A DNA stretch of 64,000 nucleotides from Rikenellaceae bacterium (GTDB lineage: Bacteria > Bacteroidota > Bacteroidia > Bacteroidales > Rikenellaceae), in NCBI GenBank assembly GCA_015059715.1, contig SUZV01000006.1, positions 1-64,000 of the forward strand. The letters run 5' to 3'. A model generated the notes under the pieces. The model was not told the DNA's origin, ran no database searches, and worked only from the letters and a program-made list of their open reading frames with translations. The position numbers and the translations under genes are program-made. This document shows positions 23,376-58,476 of this stretch, one piece after another. Positions within the stretch are counted from its first letter, which is position 1; each line of letters starts with the position of its first letter.

Positions 23376-25841
23376 ATGAATATTTCATTCAACTGGCTAA
23401 AACGCTATCTCGACACCGACATCGCTCCTGAGCGTCTTGCGGAGATACTCACCGAGTTAGGACTCGAAGTCGAGGAGTTCGAGAAGATTGAGACAATAAA
23501 GGGCGGACTTAAGGGTGTCGTCGTGGGCGAGGTGCTTACCTGTGAGGAGCATCCCGACTCGGACCACCTACATATAACTACCGTAGATGTGGGCACAGAG
23601 GCTCCACTACAGATAGTATGTGGCGCAGCAAACTGTCGCAAAGGTCTTAAGGTGATGTGCGCAACAGTAGGTTCGGTGCTATACCCTATCGACTCAGACG
23701 AAGAGTTCAAAATCAAGCGTAGCAAGATTCGTGGCGTAGAGTCTCTCGGTATGCTATGTGCCGAGGACGAGCTTGGCATAGGCCGCAACCACGATGGCAT
23801 CATGGAACTTCCTACGGATGCCGTAGTAGGCACCCCTGCAAAGGAGTATCTTCACATTGCCGACGACTACCTTATCGGCATAGGCCTGACACCCAACCGC
23901 GTAGATGCAGCATCACACATAGGCGTAGCTCGCGATGTGGCAGCATATCTGAAGAGTCGCGGCGAGAGGGTTGAGTATCGTCTACCATCGGTCGAGGCGT
24001 TCCAGGTTGACGACACCTCACGCACCATAGAGGTCGAGGTGATTAATAGCGAGGCGGCACCACGCTATACAGGTATCACCGTAAGCGGTTGTAAGATTGC
24101 CCCATCGCCCGAGTGGATGCAGAACGAGCTTCGTGCCGCAGGCATTAACCCTAAGAACAACCTCGTAGATATCACCAACTACGTCCTCTTTGAGCTTGGT
24201 CAGCCACTCCACGCCTTCGATGCCGATAAGATTGAGGGAGGTAAGGTTGTGGTACGCTCGGCTGCCGAGGGTGAGAAGTTTATCACCTTAGATGGCGTAG
24301 AGCGCACGTTGACGGCTAACGACCTTATGATATGCTCGGCCGAGCGTCCTATGTGCATCGCAGGTGTCTACGGAGGTAAGGACTCGGGCATCAGCGACGA
24401 AACGGTGAATGTATTTATCGAGAGTGCATACTTCCACCCTGTCTGGGTGCGCAAGACAGCAAAGCGTTTCGGTCTTAACACTGATGCATCGTTCCGCTTC
24501 GAGCGAGGCATAGACCCCAACATTCAGGTATATGCCCTTAAGCGCGCAGCACTGCTTATGAAGGAGCTTGCTGGTGGTCGCATAACATCTGAGATTATCG
24601 ATATCAACCCCCGACCAGCCCAGCACTTCGAGTTTGACTTCTCGCTTGACCGCGCACGAAGACTTATAGGCAAGGATATCCCCGAGGATACCATTCTCAG
24701 TATCCTCGATGCTCTTGAGGTCGAGGTACGTGGCCGCGAGGGCGATACACTCAGGGTTGCAGTACCCCCATACCGCGTAGATGTACAGCGCGAGGCCGAC
24801 CTTGTTGAGGATGTGCTCCGCGTATATGGCTACAACAATATCGAGATTTCGGACCACGTAAACTCGACACTCTCATACGCACCAAAGCCCGACAAGAGCC
24901 GTCTACAGAACATCGCCTCAGACTATCTCTCGGCTAATGGATATACCGAGATTATGTCTAACTCGCTAACTAAGGCCTCGTACTACGAAGGCTGCACAAG
25001 CTACCCTGTTGAGCGTTGCGTAAGAATACTCAACCCACTCTCACAGGACCTTAACGTTATGCGTCAGACGCTGCTGTTCAACGCGCTGGAGGCTGTCGAG
25101 CTTAACGTAAATCGTCGTAATGGCAACCTAAAGATGTACGAGGTGGGCAACTGCTACGCCTACGCCGAGGAGAGAGCTTCGGAGGAGAACACCTTGGCCA
25201 AGTACGAGGAGAGCTTCCGCATAGGCATCACCGTAACAGGCCTATCGACACAGCTATCGTGGAATAGCAAGGCCGAGACATCGTCGTTCTTTACGTTGCG
25301 CGCTGCTGTCGAGCGTCTACTTAAGCGTTTCGGCATCGACATCTACGCATTGCAGTGCGAGAGCATCGACTCAGACCTATATGCCGATGCTATACTCTTC
25401 AAGCAAGGTCCTAAGGAGGTGTTACGTATGGGCGTAGTGTCGCCTATCGTGCGCAAGAGGTTCGATATCAAGCAGGAGGTATACTTCGCTGAGATAGACT
25501 TCGACCAGCTCATCAAGATGACCAAGAAGGCTAAGGTGCAGTTCAAGGAGCTATCTAAGTTCCCCGAGGTAAAGCGCGACTTGGCTCTTTTAGTAAACAA
25601 GAGTGTCACATTCTCGCAGCTACGCTCTATAGCCTTTGCTACGGAGAAGAAGCTACTCAAGTCGGTATCGCTCTTCGATGTTTACGAGGGCGACAAGCTC
25701 CCCGAGGGCAAGAAGTCATACGCCTTAAGCTTCATCCTTGAGGATAAGAACCAGACACTTACCGACAAGCAGATTGAGCGTACTATGGCCAACATACAGA
25801 CTCAGCTTGAGCAGAAGTGCGCGGCCGAGGTAAGAAAGTAG
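23376..25841 (+). CDS. pheT: Phenylalanyl-tRNA synthetase beta subunit
   Basis: 821 aa; MNISFNWLKRYLD, tRNA-binding EMAP-like domain, B3/B4, B5 and FDX-ACB domains. Confidence 0.98.
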   Translation: MNISFNWLKRYLDTDIAPERLAEILTELGLEVEEFEKIETIKGGLKGVVVGEVLTCEEHPDSDHLHITTVDVGTEAPLQIVCGAANCRKGLKVMCATVGSVLYPIDSDEEFKIKRSKIRGVESLGMLCAEDELGIGRNHDGIMELPTDAVVGTPAKEYLHIADDYLIGIGLTPNRVDAASHIGVARDVAAYLKSRGERVEYRLPSVEAFQVDDTSRTIEVEVINSEAAPRYTGITVSGCKIAPSPEWMQNELRAAGINPKNNLVDITNYVLFELGQPLHAFDADKIEGGKVVVRSAAEGEKFITLDGVERTLTANDLMICSAERPMCIAGVYGGKDSGISDETVNVFIESAYFHPVWVRKTAKRFGLNTDASFRFERGIDPNIQVYALKRAALLMKELAGGRITSEIIDINPRPAQHFEFDFSLDRARRLIGKDIPEDTILSILDALEVEVRGREGDTLRVAVPPYRVDVQREADLVEDVLRVYGYNNIEISDHVNSTLSYAPKPDKSRLQNIASDYLSANGYTEIMSNSLTKASYYEGCTSYPVERCVRILNPLSQDLNVMRQTLLFNALEAVELNVNRRNGNLKMYEVGNCYAYAEERASEENTLAKYEESFRIGITVTGLSTQLSWNSKAETSSFFTLRAAVERLLKRFGIDIYALQCESIDSDLYADAILFKQGPKEVLRMGVVSPIVRKRFDIKQEVYFAEIDFDQLIKMTKKAKVQFKELSKFPEVKRDLALLVNKSVTFSQLRSIAFATEKKLLKSVSLFDVYEGDKLPEGKKSYALSFILEDKNQTLTDKQIERTMANIQTQLEQKCAAEVRK

Positions 25842-53221: not shown

Positions 53222-53794
53222 CTATGCCGCGACTCGTACCGAGCGTCGCCAACGCATATATCCTGCCACAGCGAGCACACAGTAGATTGCGTACAACCCT
53301 GCGGTGAGAGGTATCCCCTTGTAGAGGTACAATCCCACGCTTATCATATCGACAATAAGCCACACAAGCCACTGCTCGACAAGCTTACGCGAGAGCATCC
53401 ACATAGCCACAATGCTCAGTGCCGTAGACATCGAATCGAAGAGGGGCACACGACTATCAGTAAACTCAGTAAGCACGAAGTATATCGCCACGTGCAACAC
53501 AGCGTAACAGATGACAAGTGGCAATATCCACCCTCGTGGCGTATGCTTAATTGCCCCCTTGGGCGTATCCTGACGATTACGTAGCCACACCACCAAGCCA
53601 TAGATACCTGCAGCCACATAGTAGAGCTGCATGGCCGCATTGGCATAGATACCTGCCCTAAGATAGAGCAGACCATGAACCATAGGCATTATAGCACCTA
53701 TGACCCACACCCATATATTCGCCTTATACTCCAACCAAAGATAGAGCAGGCCGAGTGTCGTGCCGATAATCTGTAGTATCAATGACCAATCCAT
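53222..53794 (-). CDS. pnuT: PnuC-family transporter, likely PnuT-type thiamine uptake
   Basis: 190 aa, PnuC-like TM pattern; directly downstream of a TonB receptor with a TPP riboswitch. Confidence 0.85.
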   Translation of the reverse strand: MDWSLILQIIGTTLGLLYLWLEYKANIWVWVIGAIMPMVHGLLYLRAGIYANAAMQLYYVAAGIYGLVVWLRNRQDTPKGAIKHTPRGWILPLVICYAVLHVAIYFVLTEFTDSRVPLFDSMSTALSIVAMWMLSRKLVEQWLVWLIVDMISVGLYLYKGIPLTAGLYAIYCVLAVAGYMRWRRSVRVAA

Positions 53795-53841: not shown

Positions 53842-56091
53842 CTAAAAGTTGACAGTTATATTACCCAAAAAGTTAATCGGTGCTTGTGGAAAGTAGAAAG
53901 CCTCGTCATATCGCTCGCCATCCCACATATATGAGTAGCCATAACCATTTGATTCATACAGCGTTGAAAACAGGTTATTAATAGCCAATCCAAAGCGCAC
54001 GCTACCACCATTGCCTATAGCTATACGATAGCCCAGGTCGAGGTTGGTAACAGTGTAGGCATCGAGCGACAGAGCCTCAATCTCGTTATTCGTAAAGTAC
54101 TGTTTGCCAACATACTGCGTATGCCACAACAGCGAGAACCCTGCGACGTGAAAGTCTGCCGAGAGCGACCCAACGACCGAGGGCGAGTATGAGATAGTCA
54201 TATCACCGAGATTTTGACCAAAGGTTGGACTATCCTTCAGCTCATCAACATACTCCTCGATAACATTCTGCGAGAGCGTAGCATTTGCCGAGAGCGTGAG
54301 CCACTTTGTTGTTCTCCACGAGGCCATAAGCTCGACACCTCGACGATAGCTTCTGTCGACATTTACATTAAGCGCATCGTCACCATCGTTGACCATACCC
54401 GTAGCCACCAACTGATTATGGTAGAGCATATAGTATAGGTTTACGCCCACCGATAGACGTGGCGAGGTGTAGTTATACCCAAGCTCAAAGTCGTATAGAC
54501 GCTCCGACTCGGGGTAGCTATCATCTGCTGCAAACATATAGCGGTCCGTAAAGTCCGAGCGCGTAGGCTCGCGATTTGCAATAGCTGCCGAGACAAAGAG
54601 GTTGTGTCCACCGCGCTTATAACTCAAGCCCACGTGCGGATTGAGGAAGTGGTACTGCTTATCGACATCGATGGGCTGCATATATACCCCATCATCACCC
54701 CATATGGAGTTGTCGTTAACGCCCCACGCTTTATAGTGAACATAGCGGTACTGCATATCACCAAAGAGGTGGATGTTGTTACCCTTGTCGTCACTAAGCA
54801 CCCTCCACTCGGCTCGTACAAAGATGTTGGCATCCTGCTTGGTAACATCGTTGTCGTACCAGCGACCAGCGACATCGCCACTATCCATGCCATCGACCCA
54901 CGACACCGTTCCCCAGTGTGGACATGTATAGTAGCTCCACGAGCCGCCAAACGTAAGGTTTAACCTTGATGTGTTGTAGCTGGCGGCCATATTTGCTCCT
55001 CCGAGGTGGTTACGCATAAGCTTATGGCGTATAAGGTCAGCCTGCTCAGAGCTAACGCCCTTAAGGTTTGTATAACCCTCCAACCACGCATCATCTTTAT
55101 ACTGGTTATAGTAGCCATAGCCATAGGTATAAAATAGCGTAGCATTTAGCTGCCAGAGCCTATTAAAGCGGTGGTTTACAACTAAATGGTTATTAATTTG
55201 AAGATAGTTATCCGTCTCGTCGTCATGGTAGTCTACGTGCGTACCATCGGCTAGCGTATATGGGCCATCCGAGGTGGTATACTGTCCCGAAGTGTGGTAT
55301 CTGCGTCCGTAGAGTGCCATATCCTCGCGCGACACACCATTATACGTAAGATAGGTCTTTGCCGAGCCACCAAACGACAACAGCTTAATGCGCGTATTAT
55401 CGGCATAGTAACCCACCTGAGCCATATAACTCTTAAGATCCGTAGCACCACGCTCGATATAGCCATCCGAGCCGATATGCGAGAGGCGAGCATCCACAAC
55501 CCAATGGTCACGCATAAGTCCCGATGTAAGGTGTACGGCCTGCTTATTGGTGTTATACGAGCCATAGGAGAGCGACGCACCACCACGAAACTCCGTTGTC
55601 AGGGCATCGGTAGTCATCGATACCGCACCGCCAAAGGCCCCCGCGCCATTTGTCGAGACTCCTGCACCGCGCTGCACCTGGATACTACCTACCGACGATA
55701 TAAGGTCTGGCGTATCGTACCAATATACCGAGTGCGAATCGGGGTTATTCATTGCCACGCCATTTACCGTAACATTTATGCGCGTAGCATCCGTACCACG
55801 CAGACGAATAGATGTTGCACCGATACCGATACCCGTCTCATTGGTGGCTATCATCGAGGGTGTCAGTGCAAGAACAGATGGCAGGTCAAGTGCATAGCTT
55901 TTACTAATTATAGACTCCTTGTCTATATCGTTGTAGGCTACGGGTGCAGTACGCGATGCCGCTGTGGTAACCACCTCAACAACACCTACATCATAGATTT
56001 GTGTAGTATCAAGTCGCTCGCGATACTCCTTCGCCCCGAGTGAGGCAACGCCCAATACTGTGAGGGCCAAAAACGAAAAAATCCTTTTCAT
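53842..56091 (-). CDS. TonB-dependent outer-membrane receptor, likely thiamine (Omr1 type)
   Basis: 749 aa; plug domain RGTDATRINVTVNGVAMNNPDSHSVYW; terminal aromatic NITVNF. Confidence 0.93.
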   Translation of the reverse strand: MKRIFSFLALTVLGVASLGAKEYRERLDTTQIYDVGVVEVVTTAASRTAPVAYNDIDKESIISKSYALDLPSVLALTPSMIATNETGIGIGATSIRLRGTDATRINVTVNGVAMNNPDSHSVYWYDTPDLISSVGSIQVQRGAGVSTNGAGAFGGAVSMTTDALTTEFRGGASLSYGSYNTNKQAVHLTSGLMRDHWVVDARLSHIGSDGYIERGATDLKSYMAQVGYYADNTRIKLLSFGGSAKTYLTYNGVSREDMALYGRRYHTSGQYTTSDGPYTLADGTHVDYHDDETDNYLQINNHLVVNHRFNRLWQLNATLFYTYGYGYYNQYKDDAWLEGYTNLKGVSSEQADLIRHKLMRNHLGGANMAASYNTSRLNLTFGGSWSYYTCPHWGTVSWVDGMDSGDVAGRWYDNDVTKQDANIFVRAEWRVLSDDKGNNIHLFGDMQYRYVHYKAWGVNDNSIWGDDGVYMQPIDVDKQYHFLNPHVGLSYKRGGHNLFVSAAIANREPTRSDFTDRYMFAADDSYPESERLYDFELGYNYTSPRLSVGVNLYYMLYHNQLVATGMVNDGDDALNVNVDRSYRRGVELMASWRTTKWLTLSANATLSQNVIEEYVDELKDSPTFGQNLGDMTISYSPSVVGSLSADFHVAGFSLLWHTQYVGKQYFTNNEIEALSLDAYTVTNLDLGYRIAIGNGGSVRFGLAINNLFSTLYESNGYGYSYMWDGERYDEAFYFPQAPINFLGNITVNF

Positions 56092-56134
56092 ACTTCATTT
56101 TTTTTAAGTTGAAAAGGGGTTTAAGAAAAGATAT

Positions 56135-56900
56135 ATCCAATCCTGGTCTCAGCATTACCCGTATCCAGTTCAATGGGTCTAATCTCAGCCACTTCACTTC
56201 ACTTCGTTCGTTCGTGGCTTTGCCATTGACATTTACAATCCCTCTAAATCTCCCTTTGATAAGGGAGACTTTTAGGTAGTCATAGCGTCCCACTACGTTA
56301 CGTTTGTAGCTCAGCCATTGACATTTACAATCCCTCAAATCCCACTTTGATAAGGGAGACTTTTAGGTAGTCATAGCATCCACTACGTTCATCTGTGGCT
56401 CAGCCATTGACATTTACAATCCCTCTAAATCTCCCTTTGATAAGGGAGACTTTTGGGTAGTCATAGCACCCACGACGTTACGCTTGTGGCTTTGCCATTG
56501 ACATTTACAATCCCTCTAAATCTCCCTTTGATAAGGGAGACTTTTGGGTAGTCATAGCACCCACGACGTTACGCTTGTGGCTTTGCCATTGACATTTACA
56601 ATCCCTCAAATCCCACTTTAACAAGGGAGACTTTTGGGGAGTCATAGCATCCACTTCGTTACGTTCGTGGCTTAGCCATTGACATTTACAATCCCTCTAA
56701 ATCTCCCTTTGATAAGGGAGACTTTTGGGTAGTCATAGCGTCCACTTCGTTCATCTGTGGCTTTGCCATTGACATTTGGGTAGTCATAGCATCCACGACG
56801 TTACGTTTGTGGCTTAGCCGACAACATCTGTCAATTTACCACAATAACCACAGATTACTCTATCAATCTGCGAGGTAGTGAAGGAGTAGCACCCCCTAAT
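56135..56900 (-). promoter_or_regulatory. TPP riboswitch (THI element) with a very large insertion in the P3 arm
   Basis: Minus strand 5' half AGGGGGTGCTACTCCTTCACT at about 56897-56877; 3' half AGTGAAGTGGCTGAGATTAGACCCATTGAACTGGATACGGGTAATGCTGAGACCAGG at about 56196-56142; P2 GGGT/ACCC and P3 GCTACT/AGTGGC pair across the insertion. Confidence 0.78.
56190..56817. repeat. Tandem array, six ~90-bp units plus one 52-bp deletion unit and a partial unit, inside the riboswitch P3 arm
   Basis: Units start gccattgac at 56222, 56314, 56403, 56494, 56585, 56675, 56765; consensus gccattgacatttacaatccctctaaatctccctttgataagggagacttttgggtagtcatagcacccacgacgttacgcttgtggcttt. Confidence 0.95.
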
Positions 56901-56907
56901 TATGGCG

Positions 56908-56915
56908 CAAAGATA
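56908..56915 (-). promoter_or_regulatory. -7 box TATCTTTG for the riboswitch-omr1-pnuT transcript
   Basis: CAAAGATA on + strand with an upstream TTTTG (-33-like) on the minus strand; just upstream of the riboswitch 5' half. Confidence 0.6.
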
Positions 56916-56966: not shown

Positions 56967-56997
56967 TGTGGTTACAGATACTTCAATCACTAAACAT

Positions 56998-58476
56998 ATG
57001 AAACGCCTACCTATACTTTTGACTATAATCCTAATACTCACCTCATGTTTAGATGAGTCGATATTTGGCACTAAAACATCGAAGTACGAGATACACTACA
57101 CCACGTCGGATGGTCAACCAGTATATATACACTATAAACTTTTGAGCGGTTTTGGCCATGTCGTAGTATCGAACACCTACGAGAATGGGTTAGGCGTTAT
57201 AAAATTTAAGGAGGGTGTCGAGAGCATTTCCGACAATGCCTTTGCCAACTCCAACCTCGTAAGCATCAGCATACCCGAGTGCATAACCTCGATTGGTGAC
57301 CAGACATTTATGGGTTGTAGCGAGCTTGTGAGTGTGGAACTTTCGGAGAGCGTAACCGAGATAGGCACTGAGGCATTCAGTCGGTGTACAAGCCTAAGGG
57401 ATATCGTCGTACCAAGCGGCGTAAGCGTAATCAAGAAGGAGACATACAGCCATTGCACGGCACTCACATCAATATCTATCCCCGAAGGTATCACAGCCAT
57501 TAAGGCTGGGGCCTTTGAGGATTGCACAGGAGTAACCTCTGTGACGCTGCCCGAGAGTCTGACGACGATCGAGGAGGCTCCATTTTCAGGGTGCGACAAT
57601 CTCGCCGAGTTCTACGGCAAGTATGCCTCTAAGGATGGTAAATATCTCTGCGATGGCGACACGCTTTTGGCCACTGCCCCTGCAGGGCTGACAGAGCTTA
57701 CGATTCCCGAGGGCATAACCACCATAGGCGAGTATGCCGTAGGTGGATGTAAGCAGCTACTAAGCATAACCATTCCCGAGGGCGTTACAACGATAGGTAA
57801 AGGTGCATTTAGCAAGTGTGAGGAGTTAACCGAAATAAGTATACCGACGAGCGTTGCCTACATAGGAGCTGAGGCATTTCAACTCTGCTACAAGTTAACA
57901 GATGTCACTATACCCGAGGGCGTTACCACCATCGAGCCAAAGACATTCTTTAACTGTAACAGCTTAAAGAGCGTATCACTACCCGACACCATAACGACCA
58001 TAAGCGACAACGCCTTTAGCGTCTGCCCATCGCTAACCGATTTCACGATACCAGATAGCGTCACCGCGATAGGCCAAGGGGCATTCGGAGGATGTAAATG
58101 GTTAAAGGAGATTGCCATCCCTGAGGGCGTAACAGCACTCTACGACTACACTTTCAGCGGTTGTGAAAGGCTGAGTGCGCTATCGCTTCCGAGTACACTC
58201 ACATCGATAGGCAGTAGAACATTCTCCTCTTGTCGCGTACTAAAGGAGGTAACCATACCTCAATCCGTATCGACCATTGGCGACTCAGCCTTTGTCCACT
58301 GCAAATGGCTCGAAGCTGTGTACTGTATGCCTACCACACCGCCCACAATCAGCGACAACACCTTCTCGGAGTGTGCCGCAGAACTTACGATATACGTACC
58401 CAAAGGGTGCGGACAAAGCTACAAGAGTGCCGAGGGGTGGAGCAGCCACCAAGAGGCGATAGTTGAGAAGGAGTAA
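56998..58476 (+). CDS. BspA-type leucine-rich-repeat lipoprotein
   Basis: Lipobox LTSC; about 15 repeats of the form ITIPEGVTTIGxxAFxxCxxLxxV; start corrected from 56968. Confidence 0.9.
   Translation: MKRLPILLTIILILTSCLDESIFGTKTSKYEIHYTTSDGQPVYIHYKLLSGFGHVVVSNTYENGLGVIKFKEGVESISDNAFANSNLVSISIPECITSIGDQTFMGCSELVSVELSESVTEIGTEAFSRCTSLRDIVVPSGVSVIKKETYSHCTALTSISIPEGITAIKAGAFEDCTGVTSVTLPESLTTIEEAPFSGCDNLAEFYGKYASKDGKYLCDGDTLLATAPAGLTELTIPEGITTIGEYAVGGCKQLLSITIPEGVTTIGKGAFSKCEELTEISIPTSVAYIGAEAFQLCYKLTDVTIPEGVTTIEPKTFFNCNSLKSVSLPDTITTISDNAFSVCPSLTDFTIPDSVTAIGQGAFGGCKWLKEIAIPEGVTALYDYTFSGCERLSALSLPSTLTSIGSRTFSSCRVLKEVTIPQSVSTIGDSAFVHCKWLEAVYCMPTTPPTISDNTFSECAAELTIYVPKGCGQSYKSAEGWSSHQEAIVEKE

Follow-up and report, generated by a model that had tools for sequence, protein, structure and literature searches.

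Can the two halves of a TPP riboswitch aptamer lie some 700 nt apart and still belong to a single switch? The question is raised by the minus-strand leader of an omr1-pnuT operon in the window, that is, the whole 64,000-nt stretch of Rikenellaceae DNA analyzed here (Table 1). The first-pass annotation of this DNA had proposed a split aptamer, and each of the strings that it quoted for the promoter box, GGGGTGC, the P3 strands and the 3′ half is indeed present on the minus strand where it had been placed. GGGGTGC and GCTGAGA are separated by 699 nt, and the P4/P5 arm ends 51 nt before the start codon of the TonB receptor gene. A position matrix built from other genomes gives the 3′ half a score of 81.3, the rest of the window scoring -52.3 or less; the 5′ half scores 18.3 in a scan of the whole window. 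A rival 5′-half site at 23846 (score 18.6) lies antisense inside an ORF, lacks a 3′ half and was rejected. The leader, scanned from 57000 to 56050, contains no TAnnTTTG box and no GGGG beyond those first named; no exact promoter box thus intervenes between the array and GGCTGAGA, nor is there a second GGGG strand near GGCTGAGA from which a separate aptamer could be built.

Table 1. Features of the omr1-pnuT leader and operon (positions in the window)
Feature	Position	Strand	Basis or remark
Promoter -7 box TATCTTTG, Bacteroidota type TAnnTTTG	56908-56915	-	Sole exact match in leader
GGGGTGC (P2 5′ strand and P3 start)	56889-56895	-	Sequence; P2 pairs standard in 87/87 leaders
P3 5′ strand GCTACTCCTTCACT	56877-56890	-	Predicted to pair with 56188-56203 (full-leader fold; probability 1.0 for the two core pairs)
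P3 arm, non-array part with hairpin CGCAGATT..AATCTGTG	56820-56876	-	Common to G035
Tandem array in P3	56200-56777, plus partial copy reaching 56819	-	Period 91
P3 3′ strand AGTGAAGTGAAGTGGC (end of last array unit)	56188-56203	-	
GCTGAGA junction and ACCC (P2 3′ strand), GCTGAGATTAGACCC	56175-56189	-	3′-half matrix score 81.3
GGCTGAGATTAGACCC	56175-56190	-	String found as quoted
P4/P5 arm CTGGATACGGGTAATGCTGAGACCAG	56143-56168	-	P4 and P5 pairs standard in 87/87 leaders
Start-codon hairpin CCCCTTTTC..ATGAAAAGG	56083-56119	-	-10.4 kcal/mol
omr1, TonB-dependent receptor	53842-56091	-	Pfam Plug and barrel families
pnuT-like gene, PnuC family transporter	53222-53794	-	PF04973, TIGR01528

The switch thus stands upstream of a TonB receptor and a PnuC-family gene, a layout also found in the Bacteroidota operons of PMC5613172, and the substrate is predicted; by likeness to those operons, omr1 is a predicted thiamine uptake receptor. 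The divergent gene adjoining the riboswitch promoter (56968-58476, plus strand) codes for a BspA-type leucine-rich-repeat protein. The same genome also carries an ordinary 91-nt TPP riboswitch (G000:C12:89883-89973, 64.4 bits), upstream of two ORFs which resemble thiD and thiE, as named by eye.

The orthologous leaders of the genus settle, by sequence comparison, that the aptamer is split. Of 151 genomes in the genus, 116 encode the receptor, and a further receptor search, at a stricter cut-off, covered 180 genomes; those relatives that bear a taxon name are metagenome bins of Alistipes or Rikenellaceae, often from ruminant hindgut. Upstream of the receptor orthologues, 88 leaders (counting that of the window) show a THI core, such that the two halves proposed for the window recur in 87 others, and 84 of the 88 have a TAnnTTTG-type box ahead of GGGGTGC. 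In 43 leaders GGGGTGC and GCTGAGA lie 11-19 nt apart and in 39 others 34-131 nt (66 nt in G123), the remaining six gaps measuring 146, 160, 177, 182, 375 and 699 nt. A palindromic core within P3 is confined to these six longest-gap leaders: G044, G094, G114 and G082 have a single copy, G035 has three and the window has six. The nearest relative, G035, whose receptor is 93% identical, shows the same split with a 375-nt gap and three palindromic cores, while other related species have gaps of 51-104 nt without it.

The helices of the aptamer are conserved across this range. In a trimmed core alignment of 87 leaders, P2 pairs are standard in all sequences, as are those of P4 and P5, including one P4 pair changed on both sides (U-A in the window, C-G in G035) and P5 pair types of G-C, G-U or A-U. 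The first six positions of P3 form standard pairs in 87, 87, 85, 77, 42 and 75 sequences, respectively; several pair types occur at positions 4 and 6, and position 5 is often mismatched. No conserved register of a P1 helix was found among the omr1 leaders of the genus, the best common register being 49% paired, and across them transcription is predicted to begin some 10 nt ahead of GGGG.

Folding calculations predict that the distant halves can pair across the 699 nt via P3. In 44 long-P3 leaders, native P3 arms have a mean energy of -18.2 kcal/mol, versus -10.7 kcal/mol for species-swapped arms. The window's own value is unremarkable in this comparison (17% of swaps do as well), since its P3 sequence recurs in several relatives. 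In full-leader folds of the window (849 nt) and G035 (525 nt), the P3 core pairs reach a probability of 1.0. The P3 5′ strand of the window forms a duplex of -17.7 to -17.8 kcal/mol with its true 3′ arm, whereas the seven upstream copies of that arm bind it at -5.4 to -11.4 kcal/mol. P2 has a probability of 0 in the full-leader fold without ligand, and the penalty for imposing P2 and P3 together is 6.8 kcal/mol for the 849-nt leader and 1.7 kcal/mol with a shorter 3′ end.

These results bear on the alternative that the array broke the switch, leaving the two halves as relics whose P3 strands rarely meet and omr1 without thiamine control. The 3′ strand does appear only after 699 nt have been transcribed, and the units and the last arm can form local hairpins of -3.8 to -7.8 kcal/mol. 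The core is nevertheless intact in both the window and G035, with the two-sided difference in P4, and the P3 5′ strand is unchanged between them; furthermore, equilibrium folds of the growing transcript shift the 5′ strand to its true partner once nucleotides 716-720 appear, i.e., on completion of the true arm. A broken switch is thus considered unlikely.

The array itself comprises 6.4 copies (score 881), each unit consisting of a copy of the P3 3′ strand (GCCAC..AACGTAGTG) together with the dispersed palindromic core (TCTCCCTTATCAAAGGGAGATTTAGAGGGATT). In the window, G035 and G082, none of 1000 shuffles reaches the score of the P3 3′-strand copy; the copy is weaker in G094 (P 0.003) and G114 (P 0.022), and in G044 it is not significant against shuffles (P 0.29). 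The resemblance of GTGGATGCTATAGAC in the unit to GTGGCTGAGATTAGAC in the aptamer is suggestive only. The palindromic core (CTCCCTT..AAGGGAGATTTAGAGGGATTG) is REP-like and is found at nine further sites in the genome.

The first-pass annotation had further held that the array expanded within P3 while the core was kept. Array and core are both as described, yet positions 56820-56876 are ordinary P3 sequence and no part of the array. The 104-nt P3 of G083, which lacks the palindromic core, resembles by eye the first 100 nt of the window's arm, and the array therefore probably grew inside an arm that was already elongated. The 5′ end of the arm is identical in the window and G035, and their units differ. 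Mean unit identity is 0.87 and 0.88 within the two species and slightly lower, 0.82, between them, with overlapping ranges, a pattern compatible with separate expansion or homogenization.

The real leader might also carry fewer or more units than the sequence displays, the length of the array being an artefact of assembly. The genome is a draft of 20 contigs, 92% complete, and two neighboring units are identical over 91 nt. Against this stand the array at the same place in G035, a separate genome with a unit sequence of its own, and the fact that most units of the window can be told apart. We regard such an artefact as improbable, and it would affect the number of units only, the split itself remaining.

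The palindromic core has a scattered distribution among the relatives. Three genomes lack it: G163, which is close to G082; G090, the sister of G094; and G170, the sister of the group formed by the window and G035. In G082, compared with G163, the P3 3′ strand flanks the core on both sides. Its presence in P3 demands at least four changes on the omr1 receptor tree, forced by well-supported branches, with which a single gain without losses is incompatible. The core may have entered repeatedly or been lost, or leaders may have been exchanged, and the clustering of the core on the tree does not exceed that of shuffled labels. Other peculiarities of P3 were seen in the genus: the 107-nt P3 of G021 includes a further GTGGCTGAGA, so that the aptamer 3′ strand is present twice; a decayed GGTTGAGATGATAAGC occurs in P3 of G114; and a second GGGGTG lies in that of G144. 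Copying of aptamer strands may often be the way in which P3 grows.

The window yields no RF00059 match over the gathering cut-off (best 34.1 versus 54.3 bits), which is a detection threshold rather than a biological feature. Several relatives that lack an array also fall below it, the short-P3 and un-arrayed leaders scoring 32-41 bits with matches that span the GGGGUGC strand. The local match in the window (56235-56124) uses part of the last array unit as its 5′ strand and breaks P2. A compact aptamer with GGCAAAGCCAC of that unit as its 5′ strand and nothing split, which is what this alignment and a comparable local match in G035 (44.4 bits) would offer, is very improbable, since its P2 includes non-standard pairs, its 5′ strand region lacks GGGG, and a promoter-linked GGGGTGC-type strand is kept in all 88 leaders.

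The mode of control may be sought at the start codon, where a hairpin is conserved. In 95-nt extracts, CCCCTTTTC is kept in 84 of 88 leaders and ATGAAAAGG in 83, four of the exceptions being truncated by the limit of the extract. A run of five or more T follows the hairpin in 70 of 83 leaders, so termination by this hairpin is possible as an alternative to translational control; the same region presumably also provides codons of the signal peptide. In Prevotella, translation is repressed by start-codon structure (PMC3155529), and in the transport operons of B. thetaiotaomicron thiamine gave no significant change in transcript (PMC5613172). Translational OFF control at the start-codon hairpin is therefore favored over termination, as somewhat more likely than not. 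In a model where GGGG:CCCC pairing switches between P2 and the hairpin at the start codon, no clear difference emerged (start codon unpaired 0.32 vs 0.38).

Taken together, the locus is most probably a working TPP switch of the omr1-pnuT operon, with predicted OFF logic, whose P3 arm reached about 700 nt via tandem duplication. The intact core, its conservation and covariation, the predicted long-range P3 and the growth of the arm across species are all established by computation. Transcription would start just upstream of GGGGTGC, and the array would fold into local hairpins as it is made. Once the last unit has been transcribed, the P3 5′ strand would pair across 699 nt with its true partner, and this long-range pairing would join the two halves of the core. 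Binding of TPP would then fix P2/P3 against P4/P5 and keep omr1 off, most likely through the hairpin over its start codon, the array being carried as tolerated cargo. It is conceivable, albeit doubtful, that the copies of the P3 3′ strand serve as graded decoys for the 5′ strand during transcription; if so, copy number (0, 1, 3, 6) would tune the time window or the sensitivity for TPP between species.

The switch resembles the Bacteroidota OMthi/omr1-pnuT TPP riboswitch (PMC5613172) in its core strands, gene context and promoter-proximal leader, and differs from it in the 699-nt P3 gap with its tandem array and in the lack of a conserved P1. Long P3 arms are known from fungi (PMC11683625): their mean length is about 150 nt, 172 nt is quoted for Scedosporium, and RF00059 does not recognize the long ones. 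There, too, P3 exceeds the remainder of the aptamer in length and is missed by RF00059, yet the arm in the window is about four times longer, bacterial, and made of tandem units that combine an aptamer strand with a dispersed repeat. Riboswitch aptamers may accommodate long non-conserved stem-loops at fixed sites while the core is spared (PMC2258182); the insert in the window, in contrast, is a tandem array and not a single stem-loop. No equally long TPP P3 was found in the open-access literature, subscription journals lying outside the search. The longest TPP P3 found quoted is only about a quarter the length of this arm, and the locus thus represents a known riboswitch class that is new in size and in the make-up of its array.

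Across species of this genus the P3 gap steps through 11, about 50, about 100, 146-182, 375 and 699 nt while the core is held fixed, which provides a natural test of how far apart the strands of a riboswitch may lie and still work. Rfam scanning misses such switches, and TPP control of thiamine uptake would therefore be undercounted in these gut Bacteroidota.
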